64,000 bases of DNA, from the NCBI RefSeq assembly GCF_040802235.1, contig NC_133156.1:110266173-110330172 (forward strand), given 5' to 3'. This document shows positions 47,660-55,028 of this stretch, one piece after another. A program made the position numbers and the translations under genes. The notes beneath the pieces were generated by a model. It had not been told where the DNA came from. It did no database searches and saw only the letters and a program-made list of their open reading frames with translations. The number at the start of each line of letters is the position of its first letter. The first letter of the stretch is position 1. This stretch comes from Manis javanica. Its lineage: Eukaryota > Chordata > Mammalia > Pholidota > Manidae.

Positions 47660-47993
47660 TCAAGATCTCATAGCCAAGATGGCGGCATGAGTAGACCAGC
47701 AGAAATCTCCTCCCAAAACCACATATATCTATGAAAATATAACAAAGACAACTCTTCCTAAAATAGAGACCAGAGGACACAGGACAACATCCAGACCACA
47801 TCCACACCTGCAAGAACCCAGTGCCTCGCAAAGGGGCAGCCGGGCAGGAAGCAGAAGCCCTGTCTACTCAGAGTTGCTCAGCACAAGCCACTAGAGGTCG
47901 CTATTCTCCCAGAAGAGGAAGGCCACAAACCAACAAGAAGGAAAGCTCTTCCAGCTGTCACTCGTACCAGCTCTGCAAACTATCTCTATCACC
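47660..47993 (+). promoter_or_regulatory. L1 5' UTR / internal promoter
   Basis: About 330 bases from the insertion border to the ORF1 start position. 'ccaagatggcgg' at 47674-47685 matches the YY1 site found just inside L1 5' ends, where it sets the transcription start. It is shorter than the roughly 900-base 5' UTR of human L1. Confidence 0.7.
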
Positions 47994-48845
47994 ATAAAAA
48001 GCCAAAACTACAGGCAGACAAAGATCACAGAGTCAACATCTGAGAAGGAGACAGACCTAACCAGTCTTCCTGAAAAAGAATTCAAAATAAAAATCATTAA
48101 CATGCTGATGGAGATGCAGAGAAAAATGCAAGAGCAATGGGATGAAGTCTGGAGGGAGATCACAGATGTCAGGAAGGAGATCACAGAAGGGAAACAAACC
48201 CTAGAAGGATTTATAAGCAGAATGGATAAGATGCAAGAGGCCATTGAAGGAATAGAAACCAGAGAACAGGAACATATAGAAGCTGACATAGAGAGAGATA
48301 AAAGGATCTCCAGGAACAAAACAATACTAAGAGAACTATGTGACCAATCCAAAAGGAACAATATCCGTATTATAGGGGTACCAGAAGAAGAAAAGAGAGG
48401 AAAAGGGATAGAAAGTGTCTTTAAAGAAATAATTGCTGAAAACTTCCCCAAACTGGGGGAGGAAATAATTGAACAGACCACGGAAATACACAGAACCCCC
48501 AACAGAAAGGATACAAGGAGGACAACACCAAGACACATAATAATTAAAATGGCAAGGATCAAGGACAAGGAAAGAGTTCTAAAGGCAGCTAGAGAGAAAA
48601 AGGTCACTTATAAAGGAAAATCCATCAGGCTATCATCAGGCTTCTCAACAGAAATCCTACAGGCCAGAAGAGAATGGCATGATATATTTTACACAATGAA
48701 ACAAAAGGGCCTTGAACCAAGGATACTGTATCCATCATGACTATCATTTAAATATGATGGCAGGATTAAACAATTCCCAGACAAGCTGAGGGAATTTGCT
48801 TCCCACAAACCACCTCTACAAGGCATCTTACAGGGACTGCTCTAG
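47994..48845 (+). pseudogene. L1 ORF1 with lost start codon and internal stop
   Basis: ORF1p is the trimeric RNA-binding chaperone of the L1 particle. The frame of 284 codons is open from a position where the expected ATG reads ATA (47994), so initiation would fall to the in-frame ATG at 48102. N-terminal basic/polar region, then a long coiled coil (about 48102-48330), then RNA-recognition-like and C-terminal domains with 'NIRIIGVPEEE' and 'AREKKVTYKGK'. A TGA at 48738-48740, probably a CpG change, cuts off the last 35 codons, which stay in frame to TAG at 48843-48845. The length with those codons is near the usual size for L1 ORF1p. Confidence 0.88.
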
Positions 48846-49040
48846 ATGGGAGCACTCCTAAAAAGAGCACAGAACAAAACACACAACATATGAAGAATGG
48901 AGGAGGAGGAATAAGAAGGGAGAGAAGAAAAGAATCTCCAGACAGTGTATATAACAGCTCAATAAGCGAGTGAAGTTATGCAATAAGATACTAAAGAGGC
49001 TAACCTTGAACCTTTCGTAACCACAAATTTAAAGCCTGCA

Positions 49041-52000
49041 ATGGCAATAAGTACATATCTCTCAATAGTCACCTTAAATGTAAATGGACTTAATGCACCA
49101 ATCAAAAGACACAGAGTAATAGAATGGATAAAAAAGCAAGACCCTTCTATATGCTGCTTACAAGAAACTCACCTCAAACCCAAAGACATGCACAGACTAA
49201 AAGACAAGGGATGGAAAAACATATTTCAGGCAAACAACAGCAAGAAGAAAGCAAAGGTTTTAGTACTAATATCAGACAAAATAGACTTCAAAACAAAGTA
49301 AGTAACAAGAGATAAAGAAGGACACTACATAATGATAAAGGGCTCCATCCAACAAGAGGATATAACCATTCTAAATATATATGCTTCCAATATAGGAGCA
49401 CCAGCATATGTGAAACAAATACTAAGAGAACTAAAGAGGGAAATAGACTGTAAGGCATTCATTTTAGGAGTCTTCAACACACCACTCACCACAAAGGATA
49501 AATCCACCAGGCAGAAAATAAGTAAGGACACAGAGGCACTGAACAACACACTAGAACAGATGAACCTAACAGACATCTATAGAACTCTACATCCAAAAGC
49601 AACAGGATATACATTCTTCTCAAGTGCACATGGAACATTCTCCAGAATAGACCACATACTAGCCCACAAAAAGAGCCTCAGTAAATTCCAAAATATTGAA
49701 ATTCTACCAACCAATTTTTCAGACCACAAAAGTATAAAACTAGAAATAAATTCTATAAAGAAAACAAAAAGACTCACAAACACATGGAGGCTTAACAACA
49801 TGCTTCTAAATAATCAATGGATCAATGAACAAATCAAAATAGAGATCAAGAAATATATAGAAACAAATGACAACAATAACACAAAGCCCCAACTTACGTG
49901 GAACGCAGCGAAAACAGTCCTAAGAGGAAAGTATATAGCAATCCAGGCACACTTGAAGAAGGAAGAACAATCCCAAATGAATAGTCTAACATCACAATTA
50001 TCGAAACTGGAAAAAGAAGAACAAATGAGGCCTAAAGTCAGCAGAAGGAGGGACACAATAAAGATCAGAGAAGAAATACACAAAATTGAGAAGAATAAAA
50101 CAATAGCAAAAATCAACGAAACCAAGAGCTGGTTCTTTGAGAAAATAAACAAAATAGATAAGCCTCTAGCCAAACTTATTAAGAGAAAAAGAGAATCAAC
50201 ACAAATCAACAGAATCAGAAATGAGAATGGAAAAATCACAACAGACTCCACAGAAATACAAAGAATTATTAAAGACTTCTATGAAAACCTATATGCCAAC
50301 AAGCTGGAAAACCTAGAAGAAATGGACAACTTCCTAGAAAAATACAACCTCCCAAGACTGACCAAGGAAGAAACACAAAAGTTAAACAAACCAATTACGA
50401 GCAAAGAAATTGAAACGGTAATCAAAAAACTACCCAAGAACAAAACCCCGGGGCTGGACAGATTTACCTCGGAATTTTATCAGACACACAGAGAAGACAT
50501 AATACCCATTCTCCTTAAAGTGTTCCAAAAAATAGAAGACGAGGGAATACTCCCAAACTCATTCTAAGAAGCCATCATCATCCTAATACCAAAACCAGGC
50601 AAAGACCCCACCAAAAAAGAAAATTACAGACCAATATCCCTGATGAATGCAGATGCAAAAATACTCAATAAAATATTAGCAAACATAATTCAACAACATA
50701 TCAAAAGGATCATACACCATGACCAAGTGGGATTCATCCCAGGGATGCAAAGATGGTACAACATTCGAAAATCCATCAATATCATCCACTACATCAACAA
50801 AAAGACAAAAACCACATGATCATCTCCATAGATGCTGAAAAAGCATTTAACAAAATTCAACATCCATTCATGATAAAAACTCTCAGCAAAATGGGAATAG
50901 AGGGCAAGTACCTCAACATTAAATAAAGGCCATATATGATAAACCCACAGCCAACATTATACTGAACAGTGAGAAGCTGAAACCTTTTCCTCTCACATTG
51001 GGAACTAGACGGGAATGCCCACTCTCCCCACTGTTATTTAACATAGTACTAGAGGTCCTAGCCACGGAAATCAGACAAAACAAAGAAATACAAGGAATCC
51101 AGATTGGTAAAGAAGAAGTTAAACTGTCACTATTTGCAGATGACATAATAGCGTACATAAAAAACCCTAAAGACTCCACTCCAAAACTACTAGAACTGAT
51201 ATCGGAATACAGCAAAGTTGCAGGATACAAAATTAACACACAGAAATCTGTAGCTTTCCTATACACTAACAATGAACCAATAGAAAGAGAAATCAGGAAA
51301 ACAATTCCTTTCACAATTGCATCAAAAAGAATAAAATACCTAGGAATAAATCTAACCAAAGAAGTGAATGACCTATACTCTGAAAACTACAAGTCACTCT
51401 AAAGAGAAATTAAAGGGGACACTAACAAATGGAAACTCATCCCATGCTCGTGGCTAGGAAGAATCAATATCATCAAAATGGCCATCCTGCCCAAAGCAAT
51501 ATACAGATTTGATGCAATCCCTATCAAATTAACAGCAACATTTTTCAATGAACTGGAAAATAATTCAAAAATTCATATGGAAACACCAAAGACCCCAAAC
51601 AGCCAAAGCAATCCTGAGAAAGAAGAATAAAGTAGGGGGGATCTTACTCCTCAACTTCAAGCTTTACTACAAAGCCATAGTAATCAAGACAATTTGGTAC
51701 TGGCACAAGAACAGAGCCACAGACCAGTGGAACAGATTAGAGACTCCAGACATTAACCCAAACATATATGGTCAATTAATATTTGATAAAGGAGCCATGG
51801 ACATACAATGGCAAAATGATAGTCTCTTCAACAGATGGTGCTGGCAAAACTGGACAGCTACATGTAGGAGAATGAAACTGGACCATTGTCTAACCCCATA
51901 CACAAAAGTAAATTCAAAATGGATCAAAGACCTGAATGTAAGTCATGAAACCATAAAACTCTTAGAAAAAAACATAGGCAAAAACCTTTTAGACATAAAC

Positions 52001-52879
52001 ATGAGTGACCTCTTCTTGAACATATCTCCCTGGGCAAGGAAAACAACAGCAAAAATGAACACGTGGGTCTATATTAAGCTGAAAAGCTTCTGTACAGCAA
52101 AAGACACCATCAATAGAACAAAAAGGAACCCTACAGTATGGGAGAATATATTTGTAAATGACAGATTAGATAAAGGCTTGACGTCCAGAATATATAAAGA
52201 GCTCACACGCCTCAACAACCAAAAATCAAATAATCCAATTAAAAAATGGGCAGAGGAACTGAACATCCAGTTCTCCAAAAAAGAAATACAGATGGCCAAC
52301 AGACACATGAAAAGATGCTCCACATCACTAATTATCAGAGAAATGCAAATTAAAACTACAATGAGGTATCACCTCACACCAGTAAGGATGGCTGCCATCC
52401 AAAAGACAAACAACAACAAATGTTGGCGAGGCTGTGGAGAGAGGGGCACCCTCCTACACTGCTGGTGGGAATGTAAATTAGTTCAACCATTGTGGAAAGC
52501 AGTATGGAGGTTCATCAAAATGCTCAAAACAGACTTACCATTTGACCCAGGAATTCCACTCCTAGGAATTTACCCTAAGAACGCAGCAATCAAGTTTGAG
52601 AAAGACAGATGCACCCCTATGTTTATCGCAGCACTATTTACAATAGCCAAGAATTGGAAGCAACCTAAATGTCCATCGGTAGATGAATGGATAAAGAAGA
52701 TGTGGTACATATACACAATGGAATACTACTCAGCCATAAGAAGAGGGCAAATCCTACCATTTGCAGCAAGATGGATGGACCTGGAGGGTATTATGCTCAG
52801 TGAAATAAGCCAAGCGGGAGAAAGAGAAATACCAAATGATTTCACTCATCTGTGGAGTATAAAACAAAGGAAAAACTGA
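49041..52879 (+). pseudogene. L1 ORF2 (endonuclease/reverse transcriptase), broken
   Basis: ORF2p nicks DNA and reverse-transcribes L1 RNA at the nick. The start at 49041 gives the typical endonuclease opening with 'LNVNGLNAPIKRH' and 'CCLQETHL'. Damage: TAA at 49299-49301; the catalytic aspartate block reads 'ILGVFN' where the other copy has 'ILGDFN'; TAA at 50565-50567; 4-base deletion near 50803; small insertion near 50920; TAA at 51400-51402; indel near 51556; extra G near 52818 that shifts the last codons. The RT motif 'FADDIIAY' and the 443-codon C-terminal stretch (51548-52879), including the Cys-rich 'CWRGCGERGTLLHCWWEC', are intact. Confidence 0.9.
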
Positions 52880-54804: not shown

Positions 54805-54880
54805 GTTCACCATGTAAGAACTTATTCACTATGTAAGAATTTGTTCCCCATGTAAGAACTTGTTCATTATGCTTCAGAAG
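54805..54880 (+). repeat. 19-bp tandem repeats in the LTR
   Basis: Four units starting at 54805, 54824, 54843 and 54862, the last degenerate; same register as 24488-24563. Confidence 0.85.
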
Positions 54881-54981
54881 ATTGGAGACTGATGAGATTA
54901 GGCTTGGGGTGGATTAATGATTGTGCATTGAGCATTGACTCCCCTATACAGAATTTTATTGTTGTTAACAACCATTTGATC

Positions 54982-54987
54982 AATAAA
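54982..54987 (+). terminator. LTR polyadenylation signal AATAAA
   Basis: Located 18 bases upstream of the terminal poly(A) of this insertion, so it directed 3' end formation of the mobilised RNA. Confidence 0.85.
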
Positions 54988-55014
54988 TATGATAGATGCC
55001 CTCTCAAAAAAAAA

Positions 55015-55028
55015 AAGAATAACTACTT
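55015..55028. repeat. Target-site duplication, right copy
   Basis: Exact copy of 47646-47659 right after the A-tract. Confidence 0.88.

Follow-up and report, generated by a model that had tools for sequence, protein, structure and literature searches.

The window, a 64-kb stretch of Malayan pangolin DNA, contains an L1 insertion (copy A, 47660–55006) whose 3′ end is a 1.8-kb retroviral segment made of an env transmembrane (TM) remnant and the U3-R part of an LTR (Table 1). Exact 14-bp duplications flank the L1 and its tail together, and the composite was inserted as one unit. As a chance control for the duplication we drew pairs of random 38-base stretches 2000 times and scored 1992 of these draws, skipping close pairs; the longest word common to such a pair was 11 bases. 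An earlier note on this DNA had claimed both the env-TM/LTR tail and the 14-bp duplication. Both claims hold: L1 pieces recognised by Pfam, the A-rich stretch, the polypurine stretch, the TGTGGGA start and the AATAAA are all seen.

Table 1. Positions of the two composite copies and their parts in the window
Feature	Position	Strand	Basis
Copy B, 5′-truncated within ORF2, L1/tail junction at about 22873 and LTR end as in copy A	18871–24690	+	Alignment
5′ target site duplication of copy A, 14 bp, AAGAATAACTACTT	47646–47659	+	Sequence comparison of flanks
Copy A L1 5′ UTR (shortened) and ORF1 region	47660–49040	+	
ORF1 piece of copy A, L1 RBD-like and dsRBD-like domains	47895–48740	+	Pfam
Copy A L1 ORF2, in broken pieces, longest open 448 aa	49041–52879	+	ORF list, Exo_endo_phos E=1.7e-05
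Copy A L1 3′ UTR	52880–53187	+	Ends in A-rich stretch
A-rich stretch at L1/env junction of copy A	53188–53212 (about)	+	Alignment of 22 copies
env remnant in composite 3′ tail (TM ectodomain and anchor pieces)	53213–54672	+	
Polypurine stretch AAAGGGAGAAA directly 5′ of LTR	54673–54683	+	Sequence; present at L059 too
Copy A LTR U3-R without U5, starts TGTGGGA	54684–55006	+	Sequence
LTR AATAAA; CTCTCA follows up to the poly(A) site at 55006, then A-run	54982–54987	+	Copy A sequence
Poly(A) of copy A	55007–55014	+	Sequence
3′ target site duplication of copy A, 14 bp	55015–55028	+	Flank comparison

Anatomy of the two copies in the window

The ORF1 of copy A matches Pfam Transposase_22 (E=2.3e-24) and Tnp_22_dsRBD (E=9.2e-07), and the ORF2 endonuclease matches Exo_endo_phos in copy A (E=1.7e-05) and in copy B (E=7.4e-11). 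The Pfam scan of copy A left out the pieces over RT (50568–51402) and gave no family for the ORF2 piece 51533–52876. The 5′ UTR is longer in full-length relatives than in copy A, and one of these relatives measures ~8.2 kb by its coordinates. Upstream of the A-tract, the L1 3′ UTR of copy A contains no AATAAA, only ATTAAA. The A-rich stretch that follows is probably what remains of the ancestral L1 poly(A), on the evidence of the 22-copy alignment and of four L1-free env relatives that have other sequence upstream. Scans for tRNA genes and Rfam families within the window found nothing.

The retroviral nature of the tail is supported by an open piece of copy B (23236–23583) that matches the ASLV fusion TM in PDB (E=4.3e-6); a Pfam scan of five env pieces from the two copies found no family at E<=1. 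Between positions 53579 and 53606 the tail is missing ~0.93 kb of env that is present in the four L1-free relatives holding both sides. We also considered whether the A-run at ~53356–53368 marks a second transduction or second poly(A), and rejected this, as L1-free relatives hold AAACAACAGCAGTTCC there. The run is part of env itself, in expanded form.

Copy B, which the earlier note had reported at 18871–24697 with a different target duplication, is indeed a second composite: it is 94.4% identical to copy A over 5845 columns, and the alignment stops at the composite ends. The A-run at its 3′ end reaches 24698. The reported duplication was not confirmed, in that the flanks of copy B have no clean one and the longest word common to both is 7 nt. 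Divergence between the two copies is the same in the L1 (0.049) and in the tail (0.047; Fisher p=0.84), and is uneven along ORF2, from 0.015 to 0.083 per 400-bp bin. The 5′ flank of copy B holds AAAAAGATTATTATA at what is predicted to be a plausible L1 endonuclease site.

Dispersal of the composite and its 3′ end

A probe for the L1/env junction, proposed in the earlier note as a check, matched at 40/40 scored places on many contigs (93–100%); these 40 were the places most like copy A among 4526 first-look candidates, not all of which were scored. Duplications are distinct where readable, and the contrary outcome of a junction confined to two loci with homologous flanks did not hold. The composite is a repeat lineage and not a two-copy oddity. 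We examined 22 copies for duplications: an exact one of at least 10 bp is present in 15 and one with a single mismatch in two, while three (copy B, L011 and L014) have none that we could find and two (L012 and L019) are uncalled. The 15 exact duplications span 10–15 nt; 14 are distinct, 13 start with AA and 11 with AAA. One pair, L022 and L023 on contig C15, has the same duplication and near-identical sequence and therefore represents one insertion, duplicated later. The points of 5′ truncation vary among loci. The composites thus bear the marks of target-primed reverse transcription expected of LINE-1, namely poly(A), 5′ truncation and a duplication of ~7–20 nt (exact and at least 10 nt at 15/22).

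L1 and tail have diverged equally across the lineage, with median K2P distances of 0.046 and 0.047, respectively, over the 231 pairs of the 22 copies, a sample biased toward copies most like copy A. The smallest pairwise tail distance, the L022/L023 pair aside, is 0.035. Pairwise L1 and tail distances correlate weakly (Spearman 0.18, 22 copies), as a star-like history would give, and this fit does not prove joint descent. We further picked 12 places for an open TM frame of 175–176 aa. At six of them an L1 3′ UTR meets the env sequence at the same position; in five of these six the L1 3′ UTR is of a different type, and at the other six no L1 junction was seen within the 241 bases read.

The 3′ end of the composite is equally constant, as 38/40 stop at the LTR poly(A) site: copy A, 19/20 long-fetched loci (17 at 55006 and two at 55004) and 18/19 further places. 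The 3′ end of L010 lies inside U3, at 54728, and in L043 and L058 the LTR is cut at 54962; in L058 the cut LTR runs straight into 106 bp from the 3′ end of a tail-less L1. At L017 and L020, extra bases that are not A-rich stand between the LTR end and the duplication. All 11 readable LTRs among 12 related env copies carry U5. The composites end at the poly(A) site of R and lack the U5 that related LTRs have; the 3′ end was therefore made in RNA, which bears out the earlier reading of the missing U5. The alternative outcome named there, a tail that is an independent LTR element with U5, did not hold; nor do the composites have the form of a provirus or solo LTR, as U5 is absent and the duplication of copy A flanks L1 plus tail rather than the LTR. 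They instead have the form of an L1 3′-transduction lineage, with the same non-L1 3′ segment at distinct sites (40/40 junctions) ending at a downstream poly(A) signal (38/40).

Copies with intact ORFs, which the earlier note had suggested seeking, did not emerge: across the 22 copies examined, no open frame reaches ORF2 length or exceeds 730 aa. The broken ORF2 bears on present activity, not on membership of L1.

Origin of the chimeric lineage

The env sequence also exists without L1 in the same genome, where its family gives 28,982 first-look candidates. In 4/12 such copies the sequence continues through the junction point into non-L1 sequence upstream, and L1-free relatives hold the A-rich TTTGCTAAAACAAAAAGGGGGATT at the seam. 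The relatives are only 74–82% identical in the TM part, and we identified no parent provirus among those seen. A founder or source locus with the env segment as flank was likewise not found in the loci examined, where L1-free relatives of the segment were. At L059, a tail-less L1 lies inside env, upstream of a complete LTR, and this locus shows a founder-like arrangement existing today.

These observations very probably reflect an L1 in a defective provirus that read through to the LTR signal, giving a chimeric RNA that founded a lineage with a retroviral 3′ end. An ancestral L1 would have inserted at an A-rich site within env, in a provirus that was by then defective. Its transcripts would have passed the weak L1 3′ signal and been cleaved and polyadenylated at the downstream LTR AATAAA, at the end of R, and L1 proteins acting in cis would have reverse-transcribed the L1-env-LTR RNA by target-primed reverse transcription. 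In the copies made this way the retroviral signal would serve as the 3′ end, later rounds would thus stop at the same place, and the composite could become a self-maintaining lineage, outlasting changes in its L1 3′ UTR. The earlier note had proposed a transposing lineage begun by an ancestral L1 upstream of a degraded provirus 3′ end; the junctions, duplications, R ends and U5-bearing relatives support it, and we infer the founder insertion, the read-through and the action in cis.

The first chimera could also have arisen by template switching, if reverse transcriptase, having begun to copy a polyadenylated env-LTR RNA, switched to an L1 RNA at its poly(A) end, with later spread alike. This would yield the same anatomy including the A-rich seam, the A-rich env sequence there (TTTGCTAAAACAAAAAGGGGGATT in relatives) could have aided the jump, and the L058 junction, with its LTR cut at 54962 joined to 106 bp of tail-less L1 3′ end, resembles such a switch. 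However, the seam coincides with an A-rich site in env that would also suit the L1 endonuclease (TTTT/AG on the other strand), the L1 3′ UTR is complete in copies A and B, and the L1 inside env upstream of a complete LTR at L059 shows that the route by plain insertion does occur in this genome. We therefore consider template switching unlikely. Slightly less likely still is that the composites were copied in trans by the proteins of other L1s and not by their own, as passengers comparable to HERV-W processed pseudogenes or SVA. The absence of an ORF2-length frame in the 22 copies would agree with this, but both ORFs are recognisable in full-length copies, the others are 5′-truncated like ordinary L1s, and decay after a burst 10–16 My ago (at assumed rates) can explain the broken frames.

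The great abundance of the env family (28,982 first-look candidates) might invite the view that unrelated L1s adjoin its members by chance. Yet the junction is identical at 40/40 scored places, duplications enclose the whole composite at 15/22 loci and the LTR stops at the poly(A) site in 38/40; common junctions with distinct duplications refute chance adjacency, to which we give practically no weight. A segmental duplication model, in which a single chimeric locus was multiplied, would account for L022/L023, but the other readable duplications differ, as do the truncation points, and the smallest tail distance apart from that pair is 0.035. It is refuted for the loci with distinct readable duplications, and only for these, and as the means of spread it is vanishingly improbable.

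Relation to known elements and meaning

The closest kinds to the composite lineage are L1 3′-transduction families and the SVA SINE-R. SINE-R is the env/LTR end of HERV-K, and its LTR signal ends the RNA; SVA is non-autonomous, has no L1 body and consists of a hexamer repeat, an Alu-like region, a VNTR and SINE-R. The pangolin composite is set apart from SVA by description, its retroviral end being fused to an L1 with its own ORF1 and ORF2. As outlined for human L1 3′-transduction families, the L1's own signal is bypassed, a downstream signal is used and the extra 3′ sequence marks the lineage (PMC6425141). Whereas the human family in that outline has 14 members (PMC6425141), the 1.8-kb env/LTR tail is present here at 40/40 scored of 4526 candidates and with more than one L1 3′ UTR type. 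HERV-W processed pseudogenes, summarised as L1-made, ending in U3-R plus poly(A) and having a TT/AAAA motif and duplications of 5–15 nt (PMC5537654), are retroviral RNAs alone, whereas the retroviral end of the composite is an L1 tail. ERV-Gamma.b9-Mpen of the Chinese pangolin is described with an almost complete L1 between ENV and the 3′ LTR, the arrangement needed by the founder; the likeness is one of arrangement, and the description concerns a single disrupted provirus rather than a mobile lineage (PMC12584738). Recruitment of 5′ UTRs in perissodactyl L1, reported to renew L1 lineages by capture of unrelated regulatory sequence (PMC5872511), concerns the promoter end, and in the composite it is the 3′ end. 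An L1/MaLR chimera reported as built by design is not the same thing (PMC6500023). Among the titles and abstract beginnings listed by searches of open-licence PMC papers, we found no L1 lineage described as having a 3′ tail of retroviral env/LTR origin.

Sequence collections yielded little more. An antisense ORF across the junction, used as a protein probe, gave two candidates, none at E<=0.1, and the 21 and 47 pattern matches in a viral contig collection, by protein and by alignment, were not confirmed. A DNA-pattern search of viral contigs and a pattern search of genome contigs gave none, in collections that may omit the window's own genome. Retroviral env matches in metagenomes comprised 50 proteins, among them P0008, which matches the pangolin genome at 99%; such metagenome matches may partly be L1 tails.

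Usually, 3′ transductions are treated as short-lived marks. Here one 3′ transduction has lasted, as the retroviral 3′ UTR of an L1 lineage that amplified. LTR elements are given as 11.14% of the Malayan pangolin genome (PMC11825179), and L1 tails may make up part of what is counted there as solo LTRs and env. A more tentative reading, which we hold as possible at somewhat below even likelihood, is that the retroviral env/LTR end, with a strong poly(A) signal, gave its L1 lineage an advantage, in efficient 3′ processing or in escape from 3′-end-directed control, and so a major pangolin lineage, with thousands of retroviral-looking fragments that may have been counted as LTR elements. With a lasting retroviral tail it becomes possible to test if L1 copying benefits from a viral poly(A) signal, and if the reading on advantage is true, L1 would renew its 3′ end in the way that it does its promoter.

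Composite copies in the window

The window corresponds to G000:C1:110266173-110330172 in the host genome (G000). Within it, copies A and B (table below) each join an L1 to a retroviral env transmembrane (TM) and LTR U3-R tail. Copy A has a shortened 5' UTR, and its coordinates serve below for the element as a whole. Its tail ends in the order LTR, AATAAA, CTCTCA and a run of A's, and an exact 14-bp duplication brackets L1 and tail together. As a chance control, we made 2000 draws of pairs of random 38-base stretches, skipping close pairs; among the 1992 scored draws, the longest shared word was 11. 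Of the anatomy described for copy A in the earlier note, the L1, A-rich stretch, LTR, AATAAA, poly(A) and 14-bp duplication were read in the sequence. The same note had the composite recur at copy B with a different duplication: the recurrence holds, but the duplication was not confirmed, the longest common word between the flanks of B being 7 nt. The TM piece of copy B matches the ASLV fusion TM (PDB, E=4.3e-6) and 50 metagenome proteins; a Pfam search with five env pieces returned 0 matches at E<=1.

L1-related features and local repeats in the window
Feature	Position	Description
Copy A	47660-55006	L1 with ORF1 and ORF2 pieces, then 3' UTR, A-rich stretch and 1.8 kb tail
Copy B	18871-24690	Same composite, starting within ORF2; 94.4% identical to A
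ORF2 fragment	10551-11953	Internal, same L1 group, 96.0% identical to A; without 3' UTR or poly(A); exact 13-bp duplication CTAATATAATCTT on both sides
Older L1 fragment	33363-33941	Matches 3' part of ORF2, 83% identical to A; without tail
Short-repeat pair	15780-15917 / 17674-17807	91-92% identical
Short-repeat pair	56618-56734 / 57641-57759	91-92% identical

The internal ORF2 fragment looks like the outcome of reverse transcription that was primed internally, with CCTA as the microhomology.

Spread and age of the composite

The earlier note proposed a genome search across the L1/env junction. In 2,559,957,944 bp (63 contigs), a 401-bp probe (53000-53400 of copy A) matched across the junction at 93-100% in all 40 places scored from 4526 first-look candidates (39 over 1-401, one over 2-401). 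An LTR probe likewise matched at 40/40 scored places (676 candidates); these candidate totals are minimum values and should not be read as copy numbers. Besides A, 20 of the 39 junction places were fetched long and 19 as expected 3' ends.

Duplications were surveyed in 22 loci (A, B and L009-L028). Fifteen have an exact duplication of at least 10 nt, and 14 of these are distinct because L022 and L023 have one in common. L009 and L015 have a one-mismatch duplication; none was found in the flanks of B, L011 and L014, and L012 and L019 gave no call either way. For L009, L010, L015, L021 and L026, the duplication was identified by visual inspection of the flanks. L1 endonuclease sites begin AA or AAA; 13 of the 14 distinct duplications start with AA and 11 with AAA. 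Full-length copies start with GGAGCCAAGATGGCG-like sequence and span ~8.2 kb, as calculated from the L009 and L029 coordinates, and none of the 22 copies has an open frame >730 aa. One locus (L012:1-8407) holds two composites in one stretch, followed by an isolated LTR piece (54711-55006) that has a separate A-run; a composite with a severe 5' truncation would resemble such an LTR fragment.

Between A and B, K2P distances are 0.049 (L1 body), 0.047 (tail) and 0.050 (LTR, taken over 54695-55006, from 11 bases inside it), and differences number 173/3660 in L1 against 82/1788 in the tail (Fisher p=0.84), with uneven divergence along ORF2 (0.015 to 0.083 per 400-bp bin). Over the 231 pairs of the 22 copies, which were picked by likeness to A, median K2P is 0.046 for L1 (52000-53187) and 0.047 for the tail; the smallest tail distance, one duplicated pair set aside, is 0.035. 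Pairwise L1 and tail distances correlate weakly (Spearman 0.18), as would be expected of a star-like history. By these sequence distances, L1 and tail appear to be one unit of one age, with a copy divergence of perhaps about 10-16 My at rates of 1.5-2.2e-9 per year.

The 3' end and the L1-free relatives of the tail

The LTR poly(A) site is the 3' end of 38/40 composites, A included. Of the 20 long loci, 17 end at 55006, the L022/L023 pair at 55004 and L010 at 54728; 18 of the 19 further ends lie at the LTR site, with slightly variable last bases, L043 being the exception. L010 ends within U3 and has a 13-nt duplication, which points to an alternative end or internal priming. AATAAA begins 21-27 bases from the composite end in 21/22 copies, the exception being L010, which terminates before reaching it. 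Of the 19 further ends, that of L055 has AATATA at this position, and L043 lacks the end. In the 110 bases upstream of the seam, AATAAA occurs in 0/20 anchored copies (L015 and L020 were not anchored) and ATTAAA in 16/20. The 3' flanks of L017 and L020 carry short extra bases and a second A-run before the duplication, which may be minor 3' transductions of later date.

A search with P0008, a related metagenome TM fragment itself present in this genome at 99%, matched at 150/150 scored places (28,982 first-look candidates) and returned 12 env loci. P0008 matches include dozens of env-TM copies with a 175-176-aa open frame and six places with 478-522 aa. The TM parts of the env relatives are 74-82% identical to A, so none found is the parent. 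U5 follows R in all 11 readable LTRs of the 12 (L062 gave no LTR match), whereas the composites lack it; among the loci seen, U5 loss is therefore not a family property. This agrees with the earlier note, which took the missing U5 to indicate an RNA-made 3' end: the absence of U5 shows that the 3' end of the composites was formed in RNA, at R.

Four env loci (L065, L068, L069 and L070) have a stretch 78-79% identical to 53211-53579, which blastn did not detect in the other eight. Upstream of it they have common non-L1 sequence, for example TTTGCTAAAACAAA before AAGGGGGATTACTCC, and they carry ~0.93 kb extra between the positions that correspond to 53579 and 53606.

Proposed origin of the lineage, and its persistence

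The best-supported account is that a defective provirus received an L1 insertion at an A-rich position in env, that transcripts of this L1 would have read through past the L1 end to a 3' end made at the LTR, and that this L1-env-LTR RNA, retrotransposed in cis, founded the lineage. An L1 that lacks the tail and has a poly(A) of its own lies inside env at L059, upstream of a complete LTR, a founder-like arrangement at another site. The main rival concerns the first event only, with template switching making the first chimera; a join of LTR and L1 at L058 may be a switch of this kind. In this composite (L058:1-2333), the LTR is cut at 54962, and the 106 bp that follow immediately are the 3' end of an L1 that lacks the tail and has a poly(A) of its own; a template switch between two L1 RNAs is a possible cause.

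Depth of the lineage was read from 241-bp stretches at the expected junction of 12 P0008-matched places, selected because their TM frame is open over 175-176 aa. In six (L071, L072, L073, L075, L076 and L078), an L1 3' UTR is joined at A's junction point; TTAATGAT replaces the TTAAAGAT of A and B in five of these, and L072 lacks that part. Because the junction is the same and the L1 3' UTR different, the tail was kept while the L1 3' UTR changed. In L074 and L080 the tail starts internally (53301 and 53224) and is preceded by non-L1 sequence, the pattern expected of 5'-truncated insertions; L077 has L1 sequence at a shifted place, and the stretches of L079, L081 and L082 gave 0 matches.

SVA elements have a retroviral-type 3' end. 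We found no paper on an L1 lineage with a retroviral env/LTR 3' tail among the titles and abstract openings of open-licence PMC articles. SVA (PMC13174262) and HERV-W pseudogenes (PMC5537654) have the same retroviral kind of 3' end as the composites, which work in like manner to a 3'-transduction family (PMC6425141). In a published provirus of the Chinese pangolin, an L1 lies between ENV and the 3' LTR (PMC12584738); it is described there as a single disrupted provirus, whereas the composites here form a dispersed lineage.
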